Assembly (NCBI GenBank): GCA_017506865.1
Contig: JAFCMP010000072.1
Location: forward strand, 186,001-250,000
Direction of reading: 5' to 3'
Origin: Tribonema minus
Taxonomy: Eukaryota > Sar > Xanthophyceae > Tribonematales > Tribonemataceae
Length of the DNA: 64,000 nucleotides
How positions within the stretch are numbered: the first letter of the stretch is position 1; each line of letters begins with the position of its first letter. Under the pieces are notes generated by a model that did no database searches, had not been told where the DNA came from, and saw only the letters and a program-made list of their open reading frames with translations. Below, piece after piece: positions 135 to 16,600 of this stretch. A program made the position numbers and the translations under genes.

Positions 135-3100
135 TCACATTGACAAGCGATGGGGTTGCCGAAGCAAGTGACTCTCCGTACCCAGAAGGTAAGGCACTGT
201 GTTCCTGCCGAAAGACAGCCAAAAGATCAGAGTGCAGCCTTCACAGATGTCAGGCTTTGAAGCGCCGCGCTGCATCAATAGATGGCAGCGCCGGCAGCTG
301 CCATGCCTCACCTTGTGGCAAAGCACCAGACACACCACCGCAAGCCCTGGCCCGTGCATCACTCCAACCCTACAACTATTACTTGAATACATACACATAT
401 GGCCGAGGTCTTGCGGGTCATCACCTGCAAAATCCATGTCGCTCCCTGTTCCGTGCACAGAGTCCTGCCAGCCGCGCGCCTCTGCGCCCGCTGCCGCTGC
501 TGCTGCTGCCAGCGCATAGGCATCAGCGCTAAGCGCAGGGGCAGCGGGCGGGGCCGGCGCGAGCGGCGTGGCGCCGCGGCCTGCCATCGACGGCACCGCC
601 GCCGCAGCGCTACCGCCCAGAGAACTGGCCTGCTGCTGCTGCAGCTGCTGCTGCTGCTGCAAGTGAGTAGGCCACTGGCCCAGCCACGCCGGCAGCAGGT
701 CGTCAGCCGCAGCGCTGGCACCTGGCCCATCTGCCCGCATCGTGACCTGAGCGAGAGACCGAGCGGATGCGCCGGAGACCTCGTGCTGCCGCACCCGCTG
801 CGACGGCGCAACCGGCTGCGGCTGCGGTGTCGGCGGCAGCGGCTGCGGCGTCGGCGGCTGCGGCTGCTGCTGCGCGCGGCGCGGCGGCCTCTGCCGCAGC
901 GTCTGCAGCAGGTCCTGCAGGTCCTCCTCCTCCAGCGCAGCGGCCGCGTGCGGCGACGGCGGCGGCGACAGCGGCGGCGGCTCGGGCGTTGGCTCGCGCG
1001 ACGGCGCGAGCCAGTCCTCGCTTACGACGCACTCCTCGGTGGGCGGCAGAATGACCTCCGTCTGCCGCCGCTTGGGCTTCTCCGCGACGAGCGCTGCCTC
1101 GAGGGCCACGCGCTGCAGCGCGGCGTCGCGCGGCGCTCGGCGGCTGCCGAGCTGTATCATGACCTCCTCCTTGACGTGGCGCAGGTTCGGGCGCCGCTGG
1201 CGCTTCTGCGGGAGCTCCGCCTCGGACGCGTCGCTGTCGTCGGTGACGTACTCCACCCTGCCGTAGCGCGAGATGGAGTACTGCTTGGGGCGCGGCTCCT
1301 GCTCCTGCTGCTGCTGCTGCGCCTCGGCGCTGCTGCCGTCCGCTGCTGCCGCACCGCCGAGGTCACTCACTGCTGCAGCCGCATCGCCACCAGCGCCGCC
1401 CGCAGCATCGAGCCGAACGCGCTTGTTCGTCGATCCGTCCTCGCTGCCGCCTGCTGCCTCATCGCTGACGCGTTTTCGCACAGGCGCTGTGGCGGGCGCA
1501 CTGAAACCCGGCAGGTAGGCCTCGACCGCAGCTGCTGTTGCCGCCGCCGCGGCAGGCGGCGGAACTGATGGTGCAGCTGCGCAAGCGACCGTTGCAGCAG
1601 CGGTGGCGCTGCCCGCACCAGCAGCAGCTGGGGCAAGTGCCTGGATGTCACTGTCGCCGCAGAAGTCGCTAGCCGCAGCGCCATTGCCTATTGAGAGGGC
1701 GGCACCGACGCACGAAGCACTTGCGCCAGTGCCATAAAGGCCGCTGCCAGCTCCTGCGCCACCAAGCAAGGTGCTGCCGTGACCGCCGCCGCCGCTGCTG
1801 CCGAAAGCGCCGCCGCCGCCATCGCCCGCGCCGCTGCTGCCGCCGCCGCCAGCGCCGCCGCCGATGACGCCATAGCGCCCGATGCTGGCGGCGGCCACCG
1901 CGGCGTAGATGCTGGGGGAGTAGCGGCGCGTCAGCGGCGGCAGGTGCGGCATGTCGGGCAGCTCGCGGCCCGCGCGCACGCGCAGGACGCGGAAGACGGC
2001 GTAGTTGGCGGTGGCGGCGGCGCGCGCCTTCCACGTCACGGGGCGCGTCTTGGCGGCCCTGTGGCCCTGCTCAGCAGCAGGGGGGAGAAGTATGAGCAAG
2101 CGTTGCAAAGGGGGTGTTACCGGCTGGCTTGCGGCAAGCAGTTGTTGCACGGCGCTGCGGGTCGCATAAGATGCGTTCACGCACGAGTGCTGCGCACATC
2201 CGTGTGCACAGCGCGCGGCACCTCTTATGACCACCATCAGCACGACAGCGCCATTGCCTTGGTACAACTTCGGCCTAACCACTGCACTGTGAAGTGCGCG
2301 CCTCTCGTCCATTGTGTACGTCTTGACCACCACGCCAACGACTTCTTGTGCTGATGCCAATCATCAAAAGCATGCACCTCTCTACCGGTGCTTGCAGTCA
2401 AAGCGCGGGCCGAGCCCTCTGCCACACAATCGCAACTCAAGCGTTGCCAGCGCTGCCGCTGCCAGCACCTTACCCGCATCCACCCGCGCCACGCGGAAAC
2501 TACTGCTGCTGCTGCTGCCGCAGCACTCGCACGCGCCGCACCGACCGCCCCCCGCACTGCGCCCACAAGACAACAGCCCCGACATGGCAGCACCTCTTCT
2601 GGCGTGCAGCAGCGCTCACCGCCGCCTGCGCGCGCGCCGCCGCCTCCAGCGCCTCGCGGCGCACCTCCGCGGTGAGAGCGCGCTTCACGCGCAACACCTG
2701 CGGCACCTGCGCGCGGCCGCGGTACAGCGCGCGCTGCCGGTGCTGCGCGGGGTGCAGTATCGCCTCGACGCCGGCCGGCAGCTGCGCCTCGGGGAATGCG
2801 TACGCGTACGGCTCGCCCGCCTCCTCGCAGCACGCGACGCACGCGAAGCGCGTGTGCTGCGCGTTCTGGACGTAGAGGCCGCGCCCGATGCACGCAAAGT
2901 GGAAGTACCAGCCGCAGCGCGTGCAGAACGTGGACAGGCCGAGGCGCTTGCGCTTGCCGTCCGCGTTCAGCGCTTCGCCGCAGTGGCCTGCCGGTGGATG
3001 CCGTGGCAGTGGGAGGAGGGGGGGGGGGGGGGGGGTGAATAGAAAGCTTCGGGTTTGAGCGGAACAGCGTGGGGGGGCTAGAAGCAGGAGGTCTATGGAG

Positions 3101-6100
3101 GGGGGGGTCACAGACAGGAGTTGAGGGCAAAGTGTGACGTGCCATGAGGCAGTTTTGCACGCCGCCTATGAGCTACGCCGCCACCCAGTGCACCCATGAT
3201 CATCATACAATCGGCTTCAACGTGTGACGCTTGTGTCAGCGCTCAGCTGCACCTGCTCTCGTTTGGACAAAGGCGTTGACAAGCGCACGCGAGCGTGTGA
3301 TCGCTGCGCAATGCAACGACGTGACGCTCAGGCCGGGTACACACTTCAGCATTTACAAACACCAGATGGACATGAGCCGTCATCTACCCAAACTTGCAGT
3401 TGACGGCAAGAACATATACGGCCCACAACGTTGAAGAACCGGTGAGCACAGACACAAAACACGCATCATTGCGCAGCTCACATGGCCCCTCCAGCGGCAG
3501 CCGCACGCCGCCCCCCGCATCCCCCCGCGCCTTCGCCGCCGACGCCGACGCCAGCGCTGCCACGCGCCGGTGGTGGCTCGCGACGGCGCGCACGTAGCCG
3601 TGCTCGCGCGTAATGATGACGTCCCTGTTGATCTCCTCGAGCTCTGCAAAGTGGCGCCACGCGCGCGTGAACGGCGCGTCGGCGGCGCTGCGCAGCGCGC
3701 GCACGGCGCCCGCCGCGGCGTTGGCGATGGCCAGGTAGGTGGGTACGCAGCGCGCGCCCACGACCCCCCACAGCCGCTCCCCCTCTAGCAGGACGTGGAA
3801 CAGGAACTGCGGCGGGGGCAAGGAACAAGGATATTGTATGAGGGGGCAGTGCGGATGCCGCGCGGCATTGTTGATTGCTACATGTGTTCTGAACAAGAGC
3901 GCGGTTCTGACGCCAATCTCAGCAACGGCCGCTCCAGGGCAAATTGCCAATGGCAGAGGACCGGGCTCACGCGCTTGCATCGCCGCATAAAAAGAGGGGT
4001 GGGCGCATGCGGCGACATTCGCATCAACGACGGCAAAATACCTCCATGCCGAGATAGGGGCAGTGGCTTCACATGACACCTTCGTCAAAGGCAGGCTGCA
4101 CTCCTGCGCATTGAGCCGCGTGCATACAGGCGGCGTGCACGCCAGCAACCACCACCGAGCCCCCGCGGTCCCTGCAGCATCCTCCATGCACACGATTGCA
4201 CAGCCGCACAGTCAGACTCATCCTGAGTAGTCCTCAAGAGCAGCCAGCCTTGGCGCAGCAGCGCATCAATTCCTCGAGAGCAGCCACCCCCCTGGCAGCG
4301 CAGCGCAGCGCTCACCTGCAGCGTCGGCGGCGGCTGGCGCCCCGGCTGCGCGCGGTACGTGGCCAGGTCCTCCGGCGACAGCGGCGCGCTCGCGCACGGC
4401 GGCGGCGCCTGGTCCGCGCGCAGCGACGGCGGCAGCACCGGCTGCGCGAGGCTGCCCACGGCAGCGGGGTGCACCACGGAGGCGGCCAGGCGCCAGATCG
4501 CCTGTAGTCAAGGGACGGGGGGGGGGGGGGGGGGGGGTAAGGTATGAATGAGTATGATGGCGGCGCGCCGTACAGGCGACGCGGGCGCCAGACCACGTGC
4601 ACAATTGGTGCAAGGGTCATGGCGTGGGGGGGTGGCGTTGGTGGTGAGCGAGAGAGCGAGTCAGCGCTCAGCGGCAGATTCTGCGGCGGGGGTTACTGTA
4701 GAGTGCAAACGTTTTACGCGTGTTGCTGCTCACAACAGCCGACCCACATACAAGCATGCGAGGACGATCCCTGCACTCGCATACGTACATACCTGGCGCA
4801 GCCGCAGCTCCTCCGTCTCCACGTTGACGACGGTGAACAGCGCGCCCTCCAGCGACAGCTCCGCGAGCGTGCGCAGCAGGGACGCCTCAAACGCAAAGTC
4901 CCGCCCAACGCTCCGCAGCACCAGTCCTTCATCGCCGCCGCCGCCGCTGCCATGCGCGTCCTTTGGCTGCTCCGCGCCGGCGCTGCCGCTGCTGCCGCCA
5001 TCAGCCTCCTGCTGCTGCTGCTGCTGCTGAGCATCACTGCCACCTGATTCCGTGTGCTCCGCCACTGGGCCAGCGCTGCTGCTGTCGCCACCGCAGCTAT
5101 CGACCACCGTCGCTGCCACTGCTGCCACCGCCGCCGCCGCTACTGCCGCCGCTTCACTGCTGCAATCGGCCTCCATTGGCGGCGGCGGCGTCGGCGGCGC
5201 CGTGGCCTCCGTGCCCTCATCGCTGCTGTCGCTCGTGAGGCGCTGCTTGCTGAGCAGCTGCTGCGCAAGCTCCATGTCGCCGCCGGCATCGCCGCTGGCG
5301 AGGGCCGCCGCTGCCTCCGCTACCGCAGTTGCGACCACTTGAGTTTCACCGCCACTACCGCCAGCGACCGCCATCGCGTCCGCCCCTCGCTGCTGGGCTG
5401 CCAGGGGCGCAGGGCTAGGGTTACGGCTAGCGTTCACCGATGACCCCGCCGATGCCGCCTTGCCCTCGCCCGCTGGCTTACCCCCCGCCGCCGCCGCTGC
5501 CGCTGCCGCTGCCGCCGCCGCCGCAGCGGTGCCGCCGCTGCTCTCCGGCGGCGCCGCGGCCGCAGCCTCGCAGTAGCGCGCGAGCGCGTCTATAGCCGCC
5601 TCCACGCGCGCGTGCCAGCGCGCGACCGTGTCGCGCACGCGCAGCACGCTGACGGACGCGCGCAGGCTGCGGATGGGCAGCGCGGCGGCGGCGTCGGCGA
5701 TGCCGGTGAGCCACTCGACGCTCGCGAGGCCGGACGTGTACGCGACCAGCGCGCGGCGGCGCTGCTGCGGCGGCGCCGCGGCGAGCATGCTGCAGACGGC
5801 GGCGCCGTGCTGGCACGCGGGGCACGTGAAGGTGGCCGAGGCGCGCGAGACGGCGCGCTCCGCGAGGTGCACGCACGCCGCGTGGTACCAGCGCGAGCAG
5901 GCCTGGGGTGGAAGGGGGGGGGACAGGGATAAGGGATGGGTGTTGAGATGTTGGCCGCTGCTGCCATGTGTGTGGGAGGGGGGCGCAGCATACAGCAGGC
6001 AATGTAGGGAATGCTACAAGCGCGCTACACAGGCCTGCTGCCAGGTGTTTGTGTAAATGCGCCGGCAACGCGGGGGGAAGGTACAGGTGCGTCACACAGG

Positions 6101-6477: not shown

Positions 6478-9400
6478 GCCACCTCCGCCGCCGCCACTTC
6501 TGCCTCCGCCACCTCCACCTCCCTCTCAAAGATCTTGCAGTCATCGTCAGCCGCCTCCCTGACCGCCGCCGCCGCCGCTGCCGCCGCCGCGGCGCTGCCG
6601 CTGCCGCGCTCGTCCGGTGACGGCGAGCGGTTGCGCCGCGAGCGCACCGACTTGCGGCGCGAGCGGCGCGCGTTGGCCTGCGCCTCGGCGAGGGCGCGTG
6701 CGCGCTCCGCGGCGGCGCGCTGCCGCTCCTCGCGCGCCAGCTCCTTCTTCTCCTGCTCGGCGCGCTTCACCTCCAGCTCGCGCGCCTCCGCGTAGCCCGT
6801 CACCTCCATCTGGCGCGCGCGCGCACAGGGGGCAGCGGGGGGGGGCGGGTGGCGATGCTGGTATTGAGGTGCGGCCTTGGTGCATTCTTGCGTGCGCGAA
6901 AGAGGTGCGCTGATGCGGCAAAGGCTGAGCAGCAGCGTGCATCGCAGCTCCCTGCCAATCCGCAACGTTGTATCCGCAGCACGCCCTCGCGCCTCCACCG
7001 CGCCACGCACACACACTCACAAACACACACGCACAAACGCCCCCCTCCCCCCCCTCCCCCACATGCGCCTCGCCAGCCTCTCCTCCAGCCCCCCCCCTCC
7101 CCCCCAGCTCCCCCCCCACTGCGACAACTCACCAGCCTCTCCTCGAGCGCGTCCAGCGCATCCGACGCAACGCCGAGCCGCGCCCACCGCGCGGGCTTCT
7201 CCCTGTCCCTGTCCCTGTCCCTGTCCTTCGCCGCCCCCGCCCCCGTATCAGCGCTCGGCAGGAAGCGCCCCCCCTCGCCCCTCTCCGGCAGCGCCAGCGG
7301 CGCCGGCGGCGGCCGCCGCACCACCTCCACGCGCAGCCCCTCGCACGCGCGCGCGGCCCACGCCTCCACGAATTCCGCGATCTTCGCTAGTTGAGCGCTG
7401 CCACGCAGCTCCACGCCCTCGCGCTCCGCCGCCTGGATGTCGCGGATGGCGGCGGCGAACTGCGCGGCGGTGGGCGCCGCGGCGGCGGCGGCAGCGGCGT
7501 TGTGCGGCGGCGGCGGCGTTGCGCGCGCGTGCGCCTGCGGGCGGCCATCGTTGTTGTCGGCGTCGCTGTTGCGGGGACAAGGGGTGGCGGCAGCGGTAAA
7601 ACTTGGTGAGGCGATTTATGGCACGGCCACAACATCACATGCTACTGCTGCCTCGCAGTCACTGTCGTCCGAGATACCTCACACCGCTGCAGAAACAGTT
7701 CGCAGCCTCGTGAAACGGCAGCGAAACAGCATACGTTACAGCGCCCCACTGGACACGACCGCCACCCGCGCGCCACAGCCGCCCCGCACGCACCTTCCGC
7801 CGCCGCCGCCCTCCTCCTCCTCGTCGTCCAGCGGGACCTCCACGTCCACACCGCGCGCGCGCGCGGCGCGCACGATGGACGTGATGGCCGCCTGCGCTGC
7901 GCTCATGCGCGCCAGCAGCCGCTCCGCCGACGCGAGCTCGTCCATCTGCAGCTCCGGCGCGGCGTCCACCAGCTTCTCCAGCTCCGCCAGCGTCATGAGA
8001 CAGTTGTCAAAGGGCTGCGCGCCCGCTGCGCTGCTGCTGCCGCCACCGCCGCCGCCTCCGCTGCCGCCGGGGTGCGGCGACGCGCGCGCAGAGTCGCGCC
8101 GCTGCTGCTGCTGCGCGCGCGCCTGGTCGTGCAGGTACGGCGACGAGCGCTGCTGCGCATGCGCTGCGGCATGGCTCAGTGCCGGGGAGGCGCGGTTGAG
8201 CGCGGGTGACGCGCGGTTCGCCCCCCCTGCTGTGGCGGTGCTCAGAACTGGTGAAGCAGCGCTCAGCCTCCGCGGCGCGGCGGCCTGCTGCCACTCCACG
8301 GGCCAGAGGCTTTCGCTGTCCGCCTCCTCCTCCTCGTGGCGGCGGTCCGCGGCGGCAGCGCTCGCGGCGCGCTGCTGCGGCTCTTGCGCTTCGCCGCCGC
8401 TGCGCGTCTCGCCGTCGCTGCTGCCGTGCGCGTGGTGCTCAGCGGCGGCGGCGTAGCGCTGCCTGCGGTGCTCGGCGGCGGCGGCTGCGTCGCGGCGAGG
8501 ACGGTAGGCATGGGTTTGGACAAAGTGAGTACCTAGTGGCTCAGAGCACAAGCAGAGTTGGTTTGTTGTTCAGAGGAGAGTGTCATGAGCAGGCAATGAT
8601 TGGGGCTCGTTAGACCGCTGCAGGCCAGCCCATGTGCCTGATGGCAGGCGAGATCTCCCCTCAATGCCTGCACAAGACATCAAGCCTCATCAGCACAACG
8701 TGCCCCCCCAACGTACAAGGCAGCCTGTGCCAAAAACAATTCATGGCCTTCAATCCCCCTGGAGTTGCCCTGGGCCAGCCTGCAGACAGGCCCATCCGCA
8801 CGCTTTGCATTGGACCTCCACCAGACATCGAAAGCTACAGTGTCCTTCCAGCCATAGGACGACTATGGCGTCGCACTCCTACTAACCTCCATGTATCTTC
8901 TTGGCGGCAGCAGCGCAAACGCCGCAGCCGCCCTACTCCGCGCTGCTGCGGTATCTCCACATCTTCTTCGATGCGACGCAATACTGCAGCCCCCTTTCAA
9001 CACACAGCGAAATGTGTGCCGCTCGCAGGCCCCCCCCTCGTCGCTGGCCGCCTCTGTCATATCACCATACGTACCGCTGCCAGCCTACTACACGTGCGCA
9101 CTCACCCCTGCGCGCCGCCTGCTCCGCCAGCTCCGCAGCGCGCTCCACCGCCGCTGCCGCGCGCCGCGCCGCCGCCGCGCGCCGCCGCGCGCGCCGCTCC
9201 GGGTCGAACACCCCCTCGCGCGCGCGCAGCCACGCCTCGCCCTCCCGCTCCAGCACCGCCAGGCACTCGAGCTCGCGCCCGCGCGCCGCCGCCGCGCCGA
9301 GCGCGCGCCCCTCCTCCAGCAGCGCCGCCGCCTCCGAGAAGCGCGGCAGGCGCTGCCGCAGGACGCGCACCGCGCGCTCGCGCCACCACGCGGCCTCGGC

Positions 9401-11209
9401 GGCGCCCGCGGCGGCGGCGCCGCCCGCGGCGGCGGCGGCGGCGGCGGAGCGCAGCGTGCCGCCGATGAGCCCCGGGCAGCGCGGCGCGCCGCAGAGGCAG
9501 CGCTGGCGCGTGACGCAGCCGTCGAGCGTGTCTGCGCGGTAGTTGTACGTGAGCTCCTCGCCGGGCTGCAGCGTGCGCTTGGCGGCCATGACGACGCGCG
9601 TCTCGCCCATCACGCTCCTGCAGAGGTGCAGGGGATACCGCGCGCGCGTCGCGGTCAGACGGTGTTGAAGTGAGGGTTGAAGTTGACATGCCCATGTTGG
9701 TGAGCGCGTGCGCGCAGCGCGAGGGGGGGGCTTGTTTGTGCTCATCACTTCGAGGTCTTGCTGCGGCAGCATATGTTGCGAGAACAGGATATTACTTACC
9801 ATTTCTGCAGTTCGCAGTTCGGCGCGCAGCTGTGGTTGGCGAAGCGCGCCTCGTTGCCCATGGGGCCGGCATCCAAAATAAGCTGCCCGTCCAAGCTGGC
9901 AAAGTAGAAGTCGCCCCTCTTGCCTCTCTTGCCCAGCTGCTTGAGCCGCCTCTTGCACTGCACACACGGCAGCAACATCAGAAGAAATAAGTGCAGTCAT
10001 GATCAGATGTCACAGCGTCGCCTGCATGTTGCTGGCCTGGTTGCAAAGCGCCTCAGTGATGCGCGACAACGGTGACTGGGTGCATGGGAGGGTCGGATGC
10101 GTAGGGCAGTCTGGAGCGCAGCGCTTGCTTGCAAGGTTATGTGTCTGCTGGGCCAGCCTCATATTCTCACTTGAGGGATAGAACGAACCTAACTGCATGC
10201 GTGTCTGTCAGTTGTCTAAATTTCAGCAATGCACAACTTCAACTATTGGCAGCACTGCAACAAAAATGCCCAACTTCAACTGTTGGCACTGCAACAATCT
10301 GATGCACGATCTCTTTGGCGGCGGCATGGACATTGAATCCATCAGTACAGGCTACGGTAGCAGGTCAAAATACAGTGCGGAATGCATATATTGTCCGAGA
10401 TGTAGTTGAAGTTGCCGACGAAAAGCCACATCACGCACCTCATCGACAGAGATGACCTCCCCGACATACTCTTTGAGCAGGGTTCCCGCCGTCACTGGCT
10501 CCGCTGTTGTGCACAGCCTCAGGCCCCACCCCCTCCCGTCCGATGTCCTGAATGCCTCTGTAGGGGGGTACCGCCTCTCCTGAATAGCGCTGTTCTCGCA
10601 GTACCGCCTGCCGTCGGTGAGGCCTCGCAGGGTGGGGCAGCGGCCTGGCAGGCACTCCTGCATCAGCCGCCTGTTGAGGCAGTCATCCAGGCAGTGCCCG
10701 CCCGGCTCGCAACAGCAGGTGGAGCACTCCTTGGCGGCCACGAGGCCCTTCAGCGCGGCGTCGGGGTACTGGTTAGTCCTGATCTTCTTGTAGTCGGGCT
10801 CAGGCAGCAACTCCCTCAGCCGTTCCTTCAGCATGTCTAGCGGCGGCAGATAGGGCTCGGCCATAGAATCATCAGGCCAGATCCCCAGAGCCAACGCCCC
10901 GGAGCCCAGGGGCAACTCGAAATCTGCAGCTGAGGACTTGGGAATTGGCTTCGCTGCGACTTTTAACCAGGCCTTCATTGGATCGTCTGGACCGAGATAG
11001 GGCAGGCCAGCAGCTGCAGCGTCGGCCCCAGCCGCAAAAGCTGCCTCAGCTGCAGCAGCCGCCTCTGCTGTTCGCCGCTTTCTGGCGCTCGCCTCATATT
11101 TCGCCAGCTCCTCCTCGTACTGGCGCCTCTCCTCTTCCTCCTCTTTGCGGGCCTTGAGTCTTGAGCTGATCTTCTTGGGCTTCAAGCTGCCCCTCGTCAT
11201 TAACGGCAT
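135..11209 (-). CDS. SET-domain histone-lysine methyltransferase (ASH1/SET2/NSD-like) with two PHD fingers
   Basis: Predicted chromatin enzyme that methylates histone H3 lysine, most likely K36, in the nucleus. Model (minus, 5' to 3'): 11209-10439, 9957-9800, 9617-9106, 8532-7794, 7565-7133, 6809-6333, 5902-4793, 4501-4316, 3806-3482, 2987-2620, 2066-135; about 2336 residues, phases consistent throughout. Residues 161-210 form the Cys-rich AWS; SET follows with GRGWG (226-230), [15 protein letters not shown] (297-305) and ELTYNY, then post-[11 protein letters not shown] (350-357). PHD finger 1 (C4HC3, 1012-1060) is split by an intron. PHD finger 2 (1571-1623) gains its first Cys by joining T of one exon to GC of the next. 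Ala-, Gly-, Gln- and Pro-rich linkers fill the rest. AWS-SET-post-SET followed by PHD recalls ASH1, but I see no bromodomain or BAH. The ATG is the first in the open exon. The last about 75 residues look less coding-like, so a further 3' intron (possible donor near 420) is possible. Exon 4's acceptor (CTAG) is the weakest. Confidence 0.85.
4517..4537 (-). repeat. C21 homopolymer serving as a polypyrimidine tract
   Basis: Twenty-one consecutive G on the plus strand are C on the coding (minus) strand. The run lies 15 bases upstream of the acceptor that opens exon 8 of the SET gene (4501). Its place between branch region and AG suggests it acts as the pyrimidine tract of that intron. Confidence 0.7.
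6417..6480 (-). repeat. GCC/GCG trinucleotide tract coding polyalanine
   Basis: Near-pure GCC repeat on the plus strand inside exon 6 of the SET gene. Read on the minus strand it encodes about 20 consecutive alanines just before the first PHD finger. It is a likely site of length polymorphism. Confidence 0.85.
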
Positions 11210-12106
11210 GCTAGCGGGTCGCTGTTGCCCGCGTCACTCCACTATCAACACCCCAACGATATTTATTCAAGCTTCATTTGATCGTGCGTATACAAGATGC
11301 CGGATAAAAGTTAACGATCAGTTGCTCTGCAATCTTCTAGTCACCGCCAGATCAGCACTGCCGCATGCGCCGCCCCGTTGAAACTTCAGGGGCCTCTCCG
11401 CTCCATGCTGCGACAACTGCGAGGATCGAGCGCGAGCCCCCGACCGACGAAGGCAGGGGCACCGGGGGTTGAAGTTCGGCGCGTAACCGTTTAAGACGAC
11501 AAGCGAAGAGCTTCCGATACTTGTCAGAGGGAATACATAGGCCAGAGTAATCTCGTGAGGCGCGCCGTCACCCCTCGCAAACAGGTTAGCTAGCGCGGCT
11601 GCCCCTCAGCGCCATGCCATGCCTGACTTGCTTGCCTGGGCATCCTTTCAATACACAATTGCACGCTACGTGAAAACGCTGGCGGTGCAGCTGCAGATGT
11701 CATTGGACTGTATAACGGGGTCTTGTGAGGTTCTGGCTGCTCAAGCGCTGACTTGAGTTTTCAACTTCCTGCAGATGAGGGCATTTGGAGCCTTCGTGTT
11801 GGAACAAGACAATGTCGTTGAGGTAGCGCATTTCAGCATTACGCAGAGTATTTGTTTGTTGTTTGTTTTTGGTGTCGGTCAATCTGCAGCTCATGGTCCA
11901 GACCCGCATGCCGCTGTGTTTTGCTGTATCTTCCAAGTTTCTTCCATCAGGCACGGACAGCAGCAGCAGCACGCAGAGAAGCAGCACGCAGCAACAGCAG
12001 CACCAGCTTCTTCGATTAAGCTGCAGCAATAGCAATAGCAATAGCAAAAGCAAGATCAGCGGCAATATCGAAGGCTGCCAAGGGCTGCCTAGCCAAGTAG
12101 CGCATC
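11210..12106. promoter_or_regulatory. Divergent intergenic region, SET gene / bactofilin
   Basis: 897 bp between the start codons of the minus-strand SET gene and the plus-strand bactofilin, so it must hold both promoters and 5' leaders. No clear TATA box seen. A run of CAG/AGC-rich repeats at about 11960-12060 lies in the likely bactofilin leader. No protein-coding signal recognised. Confidence 0.5.
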
Positions 12107-12559
12107 ATGTTCAGGCGCTCATCAGTGGACGCGTCGGCCGTTCCCGACATCATCAAACCCGCGGACGCGGCAGCCGTAGACCAGGCGCTGCTGCACGCTG
12201 GAGCCAGCGACAGCAAGAAGGCGCCCCTGTCGCTGGTGGACGACAAGCCGGACAGCGTGATCTGCCAGTCGCTGCACATCAAAGGGGAGCTGGAGTACCA
12301 GAAGCTGCTGCGCGTCGACGGCACGTTCCAGGGGACCCTCATCACAAAGGGCAGTCTCATCGTGGGCCCCGCGGGCAGGTTCATAGGCAGCGTGGCAGGG
12401 CTCAGGGAGGTGATGGTGGACGGGGGGCAGGTGGACGGCGACTTTGACTGCGACAAGCTGACGCTCAGGTGCGGCGCCAGGTTTGCGGGCAACGTCGTCT
12501 GCAACGCGCTCGTGCTCGACGGCACGTGCAAGCTCAAGGGGAAGGTAGAGGTGCGTTGA
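12107..12559 (+). CDS. Bactofilin (polymer-forming cytoskeletal protein), intronless
   Basis: 150-residue protein in a single exon, ATG to TGA. Residues about 45-148 read as a bactofilin domain: successive short beta-strand turns with Gly and hydrophobic residues at regular spacing (GELEYQKLLRVDGTFQG, LIVGPAGRFIGSV, MVDGGQVDGDF, LTLRCGARFAGNVV, KLKGKVEV), giving the right-handed beta-helix that self-assembles into non-polar filaments. The N-terminal 40 residues are an unconserved tail. In bacteria bactofilins scaffold cell-shape and wall enzymes; the role here is unknown. No signal peptide or membrane segment is visible. Length is typical for the family. It is the only intronless gene found in the window, while every neighbour has 7 to 15 exons, which fits acquisition from bacteria. 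Base composition is like that of the neighbouring exons, so a transfer would not be recent. The family call is firm; the function is inference. Confidence 0.88.
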   Translation: MFRRSSVDASAVPDIIKPADAAAVDQALLHAGASDSKKAPLSLVDDKPDSVICQSLHIKGELEYQKLLRVDGTFQGTLITKGSLIVGPAGRFIGSVAGLREVMVDGGQVDGDFDCDKLTLRCGARFAGNVVCNALVLDGTCKLKGKVEVR

Positions 12560-13639
12560 TGTGTCGTGGATGGAGCTGGGTGGTGACCGCTTCGCGGCTT
12601 TGAGCCAAGGCTCATATGGATGAACCGCCGCTCGCCAGCTGCTTTCATTTCCGTAGATTTTGCTGACAGCGGCCTCGTAGGCTTTCTGTAGCTCACATAA
12701 AGCTTACACACTTAATTTTATGGGCAGCATTGTGCTCTTTCCTTCTCATGCTGTTCCAGCATGATGCTCTTGATGCAGCATTATGCTCTTGCCTTATCGT
12801 GCTGTTTCCGCTGTTCCTCACATACACCAGACACGCCATGTGTATACATGCCCGCAGCGGGTCCTGCACACATCAAGATACTGACGGTCTCAGTCCACGC
12901 GTGTTCGCCCAATGTTCTTGGCCGTTGACTGTTGCTTGCTGACACCATGTGCATGGGCATGGGCATGTATATCCCCTGCACTGCGGAATTGCAGGCTTGC
13001 TTGCACAAGTGCTGTGCCCTGCATCAATATCGAGGTGGTCAGGGGATCATATCCCTACAGAAGGGATATGTAGATGCGAGCTCTCAAGTTCCGCAGCAGA
13101 TAGATACCATTGCATCCCCATGTGAAACTTTATACAACCGCAGCGAAAACTGCTGTTGTGGCCCCCACCAATACCAATCAACAAATGCTGGTACGTAATT
13201 CTGCTGCTCCCGCTGTTCACCCACAAAGCCTATCCACGTTGCTTTGCTGCAACCTGCATACAAATCTGGTCATACTGCACTGATGGCTACGAATAGTGAT
13301 GCACAGTGTGTCGTGACATGCTTGTCGGCACAGAGATGAGATGGAAACTTCAACTTGAAGCATATACAGGTGAACCCCAGAGCGGCAATGCAGCTACAGT
13401 GGCATCACATGTACGCATGCGTTACGATGACTTTCCGATGTCATTGCACTGGCTCGCCTTCCAACTTGTGATTTGGTGTGTCACTGTCACCTCCCTGTTT
13501 GGTGCGTCACCTCGCTGTTTGGTGCGTCACCCCTCCGAAACTTCAACCTGTTTTTTTTAGAAGAACTTCAAGGACCCTGGACGAGGCGCGACCCCAAGGA
13601 TATTTTCAGAAGCAGTAGCCAGCAAGAGGTTGAGACGGG
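12560..13639. other. Intergenic, bactofilin 3' end to PDZ gene
   Basis: 1.08 kb between two plus-strand genes. It should hold the bactofilin 3' UTR and the promoter of the PDZ gene. Small direct repeats are visible (GCATGGGCATGGGCATG near 12952; a repeated CTGTTTGGTGCGTCACC near 13495-13525). An ACTTCAACTTGAAG motif sits near 13348. No coding signal recognised. Confidence 0.5.
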
Positions 13640-16600
13640 ATGGAGGACCCCGGTAACACTTCAGACGATAACGCGTCTCATGGACACCGCAGCAGCACTG
13701 TGAGCGTGGACCTAGAGGCATCAGACAACGAAGCCGACTTTGAGAGGGATACTCCAGAGGTACTAAGCTTTAGTTTGCAAACATGTGTGTTTCATTCAAG
13801 ACTGTTGCATGTCGCCAGGCTGTGAAAGCTCGGTCTGCCCGATGTCGGCGCTGGTGGTGTGCCGTGGGTCTATGAGTCTCGTAGAGCTTCAATGCGGCAA
13901 TTTCCCGTCTCATCTCGATCATGAGGTTTCATGTTGCCTACGCGCCGAACCTGCATATATCAGCCAGCGCCGCTTCACTGGCGTTGCACGTTTGTAACCA
14001 GCATACCTGGTAACTGCATAGCTGGTTCTTATCACTGTCTCTCTCCTCGCAGCGAGAGGCGCCGACTGAACAGCAACCTGCAGAGCAAGCCGCCACCGCC
14101 GGCACCGCAGCCACTGCCACAACAGCAGCGGGCAGCGCCTCCACTGAGACTAGCTCGGGATTTAGCTTTCCCAGGCGCGCATCATGGCGTGGCTCCGGCG
14201 GGAGCGGCTCGGAGGAGGGGTCTGGCATCAACATCAAGAACAAGCTGACGGTGATGAGGGCTGCTGCGGGGGAGAAATTGGATGCTGTGCAGCAGACGCT
14301 GGGCTCCCTGGTAATAGGGAGCAAGAAATCGGATCACGCCGGCGGCGAAGGTGAGCGCTGCTGCACACCGCTGTCATCGCATTTACCTCAGTGGCTGCAT
14401 CACGCTGGTGTTGATGCGTTGTCAGCTGCCGACAAATCCCTTGCAATCAGATCGTGCGCAAGCATTACATGCGCAGCTGCTACACGTACATGCCATTATT
14501 GTCGAGCGGCGTCACTCCCTGGCTTGCGTCAGCGCCGGTGCAAAACAGCGACAAACCGTCTGAGCAGAGATGCGCAGCCGCCCTGTGCGAGGCACCATGC
14601 ACAGCGCCCCTGCAGCAGCTGGCTGAGGCTGATCCTGTGCCTAGTTTGAGAGAACAGAGGCGATTCTAGCATGGATACGGGCAGTCATGTCCGCAGCTTT
14701 GTGAACCGTCACAGGAGCTGAAGTGGTGCTCAGGTGTCAGTGCTCGCATGCGGCCGAGCGATGGTGATGCGGCGCGCATGCCACTTCGCGCCTGAAGCCG
14801 CTTCAGGTGAAGCTGGTGCCTGGCAGGTGCAGATGCCATTGTCACGTGATATGGTCTTGGAAAGTAGTGCGTGGTAGCTTCACAGGCTCAATAGATTTTT
14901 ATGTCCTACCTCGGAGTGTTGCCAGAACGTGACGTGCCCATGTCAGCTCCAAAGGCAATGTGGTCGCGGTCCCACGCTCTAAAGTCAATGCTGAAAGTGT
15001 AGCGGCACGGCCCTCCTGTTCTCTTTTCAAAAATTTACATCAAGCTGAAGTACACCAGGTGCTGTGGCCGCCCGCGAGCAACGTCACGGCGGGAGCGTGC
15101 AGCAGTGCTCAACATACAGCACGCGGCAGTGCTCAGCGCGCATGCGCATCCAACCGCACAAGAGCCGCGTGCGTAAGAGCGGTGCGGCGCCTCGTGCCTG
15201 CCGTCGGGCGTTGCAGTGCGACAGGCGCAGCCACATGGTAGCCGCTGTTGGCGTGCCTGGGTTGGGTGTGGCACCGGACAATACTTCAGTGAATTTCACA
15301 CTTCAACGTCCAGAGTGCCAGCGCCGTATCCCATCTGTCTCACTGGATGTAGTTGAGCTGTATCTGTTGCGACATTGAAGGTGCGGCGGCCCTGCTGCTG
15401 ATGCGCTCACAATGTCCACTGCAACCATTCGTTGTGCATCGCTGCAGCACGTCGATTGTGACGCCTAGGCAATTTTAGCAGCTCGCTGCCCTTGATCCCT
15501 GTTTCTGAGTGGACTGCTAGGAAGCTTGATAAGCTCATCGCGTCGCACTGCAACAGCAAGTACTTCAGGAGGCACGTCACCCATTACTGCACCACCTGCA
15601 AACTTCAACTTGCACGCCCTCCCTCGCCTTCCGGCACAGCATCGTGGTGGCGTCGCATGTGCCCATTGTGCTGTTGCAGCATCAAAAGCTCTCCAGGATT
15701 CTCCAGGATTGCTATTGCTGAGTACCTTATGCTCTTAATGACGTCTATAGCAGTGGCAGAAGAGCGCCTCTGCCTGAACGGACACAGACCGCATTAGCAG
15801 TGATATACTGCCTGGCTATCACTTATTTGATCCAGACAAGTGCTTTGATGATAAACAATCAAAACCATCAGTCTAACGATTTGGTTTGCTGAACGCCTCG
15901 TCAGCCCAGGCCTTCTGGTACTGTCAACAGATGTCATGCTCGCTCAGTACCTGCGACCTGCACAAGCAGCATCCCCCTGGCGTTGCCGACGTGCCCAGTC
16001 GGAGCACTGTCACAGCGTTCATGCCAGCCACGTTACGCGCCTCAGCGGAGAACCATCACCTCCAAACTCTGCAGCCTCCAATAATCATCTTTGTTCCCCC
16101 TCGCCTGGTGTTGCCAGGCGCTGAGGAGCAGCAGTCGCTGACAACCCCCACGAGGCCCACCACCCCCCCGCGCGAGTACGAGCTCACGTACTCCTCTGCA
16201 CAGCTGCCGTTTCACTTTGCGCCGAGTCCGCACGGCAGCGGCGTGGTGGTGGCCTACGCGCCGGATGCACCGCCGCCGGCTCCCGAGGTACGTATTATTC
16301 TAGCAGCGGCGACCACGGTTATTGGTGGAATGCACTTGCGGCTAACCATCCCTTGTCACCTAGCGCTCTACGATCTTTTGATTTGTTTTCATTCCGTTAA
16401 CTCATGCGTGACGCATGTCAGTATGTTGGCAGCACTGCTCCTGAGCCTGATGCGCTAACCAGTGCCAGCCGCAGAGCAGCCGTGGCGTGGTGTGGTCGCC
16501 ATGCGTGCCCCTGAATGTGCCGCCGTCAGCTGCGACAGCGACGCGCCGAGTGTGCTGTGCCTCCACGGCTGCACGAACGCTGGCGAAGATTGTGTGCTGC

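Follow-up and report, generated by a model that had tools for sequence, protein, structure and literature searches.

The window, as we call the whole stretch of 64,000 nucleotides that was analysed, contains an uninterrupted frame whose 150-residue product had been taken for a bactofilin in a reading based on the letters alone (the sequence-only reading). The profile search placed it in this family, whose members form filaments and are mostly bacterial. The protein matches PF04519 over the whole domain (profile positions 1-97 of 98, E 4.4e-17) with 62.6 bits, against a curated cut-off of 27.9, and Bactofilin is the single Pfam family matched. The protein had no match in NCBIfam and PHROGs, nor the window in Rfam. 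The nearest solved structures by sequence (phmmer) are 6ria (E 6e-9) and then 2n3d (E 0.004), which we take to be the bactofilin of Thermus thermophilus and BacA of Caulobacter, respectively; both have the domain family in common with the window protein, at low identity. The length of the frame alone is not significant, as 115 of 2000 shuffles of positions 11210-13900 contain a + strand frame at least as long. The evidence is the family match. The features of the locus are listed in Table 1.

Table 1. Features of the bactofilin locus (positions in the window)
Feature	Positions	Strand	Basis
Bactofilin coding sequence, 150 codons and TGA, uninterrupted	12107..12559	+	translation of the frame and PF04519 match
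Bactofilin domain PF04519, residues 50-147, predicted all-beta	12254..12547	+	profile search
Codons for MFRRSSV, similar to the membrane-targeting sequence of bacterial bactofilins	12107..12127	+	sequence likeness to the consensus MFSKKKK
In-frame TAG nine bases 5' of the ATG	12098..12100	+	sequence
Site of the phase-0 intron of paralog C530, intron absent in the window copy	12409..12410	+	comparison with the paralog
GAG/GTGCGT (slash at the candidate junction), possible splice donor just 5' of the stop codon	12548..12556	+	sequence; leaves a downstream exon possible
Neighbouring gene, weak AWS (10355-11209) and SET (9065-10000) matches in separate frames	9065..11209	-	both below the Pfam curated cut-off

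The gene had been described as intronless. Indeed, no interruption occurs in the frame along the entire domain, and the introns of its paralogs C530 and C157 are missing from it. However, it ends in a donor-like string, and the same string is found at the likely exon end of the neighbouring SET-type gene. AGGTGCGT occurs three times on the + strand of the window, the site in the bactofilin gene included, and four times on the - strand. Splicing from the end of the frame to acceptors before position 13640 produced only unconvincing tails. As far as can be judged from these sites, an intronless gene is probable rather than proven. Among the bactofilins it is not the sole uninterrupted frame, since the paralog C542 is a second short one (124 aa).

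The GC content of the frame is 65% (64, 43 and 88% by codon position). The earlier statement that its composition matches the surroundings holds for the three other window ORFs, with GC3 of 71-77%, but not for the 1-kb flanks (54 and 51% GC). The left neighbour, in the opposite orientation and with an apparent ATG at position 11209, is a split gene of the eukaryotic chromatin type by its two domain matches, both weak. To the right, there is a + strand ATG at position 13641 preceded, by eye, by an in-frame stop. Two tandem copies of a 20-bp unit, GTCACCTC(C/G)CTGTTTGGTGC, occupy positions 13486-13525, downstream of the bactofilin gene.

The central domain of the protein is confidently predicted to form a compact beta-helix. 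The AlphaFold2 model, made from an alignment of 20 sequences (the window protein, 18 chlamydial proteins and one algal paralog), has a mean pLDDT of 82.8. Residues 51-150 form strands only, with block values of 93-98, and residues 1-40 are of low confidence (block values 47-57). In bactofilins the domain is typically flanked by an unstructured tail at either end; here a C-terminal tail is absent, unless the gene has another exon.

At its start, MFRRSSV, the protein is similar to the pattern of MF followed by basic residues that is common, although not universal, among bactofilins and targets them to membranes. According to PMC12448750, the consensus over 14,337 bacterial bactofilin homologs is MFSKKKK; residues M1, F2, K4 and K7 of Caulobacter BacA are important in binding to membranes, and polymerisation is stopped by the F130R substitution. 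An MF start precedes the domain in every one of the 30 chlamydial proteins in the set, and 13 of these begin with MFRR. By eye, the N-terminus of the window protein lacks any evident hydrophobic stretch of the signal type. Short frames starting with MF were observed upstream of C530 (L015, position 1028) and C157 (L079, position 1633), neither of them tied to its gene.

Bactofilin loci in the genome

The genome searched comprises 158.2 Mb in 554 contigs. The PF04519 profile yielded 10 matches on nine contigs, all above the cut-off. C157 was recovered in addition, in three pieces (E 1e-4, 0.02 and 0.3), when C530 served as the query of a protein search. C70 and C489 were counted as one locus because their domains and upstream frames are identical. 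Eight distinct loci were found: C72 (the window gene), C530, C157, C542, C70, C24, C66 and C390. Thus the window gene is not the lone bactofilin gene it had seemed to be. Of the paralogs, C24, C70, C66, C542 and C390 score above the Pfam cut-off, C390 on a partial frame.

The match in C93 (28.6 bits, above the cut-off) was dropped from the count as low-complexity by eye; this weak match lies in a repetitive frame (C93:26198-26455, L016) and is probably spurious. The region C489:1-10000 (L011) of an 11.8-kb contig repeats a stretch of C70 in which the matches to bactofilin and to light-harvesting proteins lie, and could be a haplotig or a recent duplication.

The paralogs differ in structure. 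C24 and C70 have an N-terminal bactofilin domain followed by long low-complexity tails with the common sequence TGTIADFYG. The motif FSFTNVFS is also common to these tails (L012 and L010), which are otherwise of low complexity. C530 contains a phase-0 intron after Gly-Glu inside the domain, and further exons by reading. In C157, the reading of donors and acceptors places introns after Phe-Lys and after Val-Gln, and there is none at the C530 site. These different sites fit an intronless arrival and later gains; losses or separate arrivals are also possible. The sequence-only reading had considered the gene long established in the genome, and the presence of several diverged paralogs with introns at different places agrees with this.

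The introns of C157 (L079, that is C157:312000-318999, approximately positions 2660-3990) contain several apparent decayed near-copies of the exon pieces of the same gene, as if its exons had been tandemly duplicated.

Likeness to chlamydial bactofilins

A prokaryote-wide scan with C530, which covered 84,980 species and requires exact peptide matches, produced 256 pattern matches. Four were confirmed, and all four are from Chlamydiae (47-54% identical). Bactofilin matches were found in 57 of the 151 Chlamydiota genomes searched, in 55 of them above the cut-off. The algal copies were compared with 30 chlamydial domains, one per genome from 30 of the 57 matching genomes and the best-scoring of those fetched, and with 11 other bacterial domains, a thin sample made up of nine from plasmid records (two of them from Caballeronia) and two PDB fragments. 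The comparison set consists of algal and bacterial sequences, without any other eukaryote.

The chlamydial domains have a mean identity of 61% among themselves (minimum 47) and of 27% to the other bacteria. C530 is 42-56% identical to the chlamydial domains (mean 49%), against a mean of 28% and a maximum of 37% for the other bacterial ones. The corresponding means are 41% and 25% for C157 and 34% and 25% for the window copy, whose best match among the rows compared is chlamydial and 39% identical. The MF start of the window copy and the motifs PET and LLR(I/V)DG are further points of likeness to the chlamydial proteins. Of 43 columns conserved in Chlamydiae, 34 are identical in C530, 31 in C157, 24 in the window copy (a further 11 being similar) and 23 in a Caballeronia protein. 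With only 24 of these columns kept, close to the Caballeronia count, and with its long branch, the window copy is linked to Chlamydiae through C530.

All trees omit C390 (a partial frame), C489, C93, L030, L035 and second copies of the same gene. The 40- and 41-row trees also omit, because of long branches, four divergent algal copies and the Halomonas, Thermus and Caulobacter rows. In the 41-row tree, 33 algal and chlamydial rows are separated from the eight others with support of 91/98, below the starred mark of the tool. The window copy and C530 are joined at 98/95 (starred), the branch of the former (2.35) being about eight times as long as that of the latter (0.28). C157 stands apart from this pair: its branch, a long one, arises within the chlamydial rows, where the local support is weak. 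Constraining the algal rows to a single clade (p 0.37), or the chlamydial rows to one (p 0.31), did not lead to rejection in the AU test.

The split of the 41-row tree is not recovered in the 40-row tree, made without C157. There the outgroup never forms one side of a branch, and the best branch (27/74) has one chlamydial row together with the outgroup. The window copy and C530 are joined at 87/95, not starred. Three groupings withstood the AU test: chlamydial and algal rows together on one side (p 0.49), chlamydial rows by themselves on one side (p 0.44), and Caballeronia with the algal pair (p 0.45). A starred split (98/85) of the 47-row tree places both Caballeronia rows with the chlamydial ones, and the AU test did not reject the 11 other bacterial rows as one side (p 0.40). 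The four divergent algal copies are together on one very long branch of this tree (99/94) and may have another origin.

The sequence-only reading had proposed a transfer, with a phylogeny of bacterial and eukaryotic matches as one of its checks. A bacterial source is supported, and the scan, the identities and the 41-row tree point towards Chlamydiae, but with the thin non-chlamydial sample the three trees do not settle the origin.

Origin and possible function

We favour, with moderate confidence, the reading that the window gene is a transferred bactofilin of the chlamydial type, adapted to its host as a membrane-bound scaffold filament, and one of eight bactofilin loci in an alga of probable red-type plastid ancestry. 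The canonical copies (C72, C530 and C157) would descend from chlamydial-type bacterial genes that entered the genome without introns and then took on the codon composition of the host; they would have been duplicated there, or have arrived more than once. Introns would have been gained separately in C530 and in C157, the window copy staying uninterrupted.

By analogy with bacterial bactofilins, the beta-helix of the expressed protein would polymerise end to end, independently of nucleotides. The resulting filaments would be non-polar and held at membranes in the cytosol by the MFRR sequence of the N-terminus. A filament system in the alga is inferred from this analogy. A static scaffold, cytosolic and attached to membranes, appears to be the best supported function, and it would hold client proteins and not serve a peptidoglycan wall. 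An exon-by-exon search of the genome for the transpeptidase PF00905 gave no matches (the control found it in 10 of 14 prokaryote genomes, and a gene in many short exons could escape). Since the transpeptidase was not detected, a role in plastid peptidoglycan is unlikely.

The nearest known system is the chlamydial bactofilin, BacA of Chlamydia trachomatis and its relatives in Chlamydiota. In contrast to it, the window copy is more diverged (at most 39% identical, compared with 42-56% for C530), is one member of a family of several genes, and resides in the nucleus of a eukaryote, an alga in which the transpeptidase was not detected. According to PMC9499288, the C. trachomatis protein is tied to the size of the cell rather than to its division.

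A less probable course of events, and on balance an unlikely one, is that the gene is a true bactofilin that came by another road: from an older eukaryotic gene (e.g. of stramenopiles), from an unsampled bacterial phylum, or from a giant virus. A passage of PMC9448923, citing Deng et al. 2019, describes some bactofilins in stramenopiles, which are likewise bactofilins of a eukaryote and are likened here by description only. A passage of PMC12192438 reports a bactofilin in giant viruses of the Imitevirales, also outside cellular prokaryotes. In addition, the non-chlamydial comparison consists of 11 bacterial domains, and the AU tests rejected none of the groupings named above. On the other hand, the scan with C530, within the limits of exact peptide matching, confirmed chlamydial relatives alone (4 of 4). 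No viral relative of the algal copies was confirmed in five scans of viral contigs, the patterns of which were too strict to exclude one, nor in phage records or PHROGs.

It is rather improbable that the window copy, as a duplicate in decay or with a new function, has lost the ability to form membrane filaments, the ancestral function being carried by C530. Its branch is far longer than that of C530 in the same tree (2.35 against 0.28), it has a one-residue insertion at VDGGQ relative to C530, and the possible splice donor lies at the end of its frame. However, the frame is intact with GC3 of 88%, identical or similar residues are retained at 24 and 11, respectively, of the 43 columns conserved in Chlamydiae, the all-beta model is confident through the last block of residues, and the Met-Phe-Arg-Arg start is preserved.

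Under the favoured reading of a chlamydial-type transfer, a wider picture can be drawn, although we regard it as tentative and rather doubtful. Starting from a bactofilin of a chlamydia-like bacterium, the alga may have built up a family of filaments, bound to membranes and free of nucleotide, whose genes were duplicated, gained introns and acquired long tails, and which would work in the absence of peptidoglycan. Such filaments would add a further class to the eukaryotic cytoskeleton, next to actin, tubulin and related proteins. There is a debate on chlamydial genes in algae, and an algal bactofilin family would bear on it.

A bactofilin in a eukaryote is not in itself new: besides the stramenopile proteins (PMC9448923), a passage of PMC12364344 refers to bactofilins in 'a few eukaryotes', and one of PMC13393453 also mentions them in a few or some eukaryotes. 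In these passages the eukaryotic bactofilins are mentioned in passing, without a function. The literature search, at the level of the titles and abstract openings listed, found no study of an algal bactofilin. The eight loci, the likeness to Chlamydiae and the start of the window copy, which is similar to membrane-targeting sequences, make the use of bactofilin filaments by a eukaryote testable in a setting where peptidoglycan may be absent.

Host genome and nuclear location

The light-harvesting family PF00504 has 92 exon-level matches in the genome, and thus the host is an alga. The comparison of these proteins with PDB gave no clear lineage. Its best-scoring entry comes from a paper on Euglena, but long chains with several matched stretches inflate this score. 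No RuBisCO small subunit (PF00101) was found by an exon-by-exon search of the genome. There are two fragments of the RuBisCO large subunit, not on a recognised plastid contig, which read like the red type in comparison with known sequences. The host is probably an alga with a red-type plastid.

The proposed nuclear location of the window gene is upheld by the intron-split paralogs, the high GC3 and the split SET-type gene approximately 1 kb away. An assembly artefact or bacterial contamination is extremely improbable: the frame is uninterrupted, as in bacteria, but the contig C72 (341 kb) also carries the split SET-type gene, the contigs of C530 (677 kb) and C157 (1,231 kb) carry these genes in intron-split form, the GC3 is high, as it is in other window ORFs, and in the comparison set the domain has no match above 39% identity.

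The fragments of the RuBisCO large subunit (L080 and L081, on C334 and C112) are broken, and apparently represent plastid DNA inserted in the nucleus, of the red type by eye. Arrays of the CCCTAA/TTAGGG type were observed in L013 and L079; the CCCTAA array in the latter, from C157, is at positions 3745-3762.
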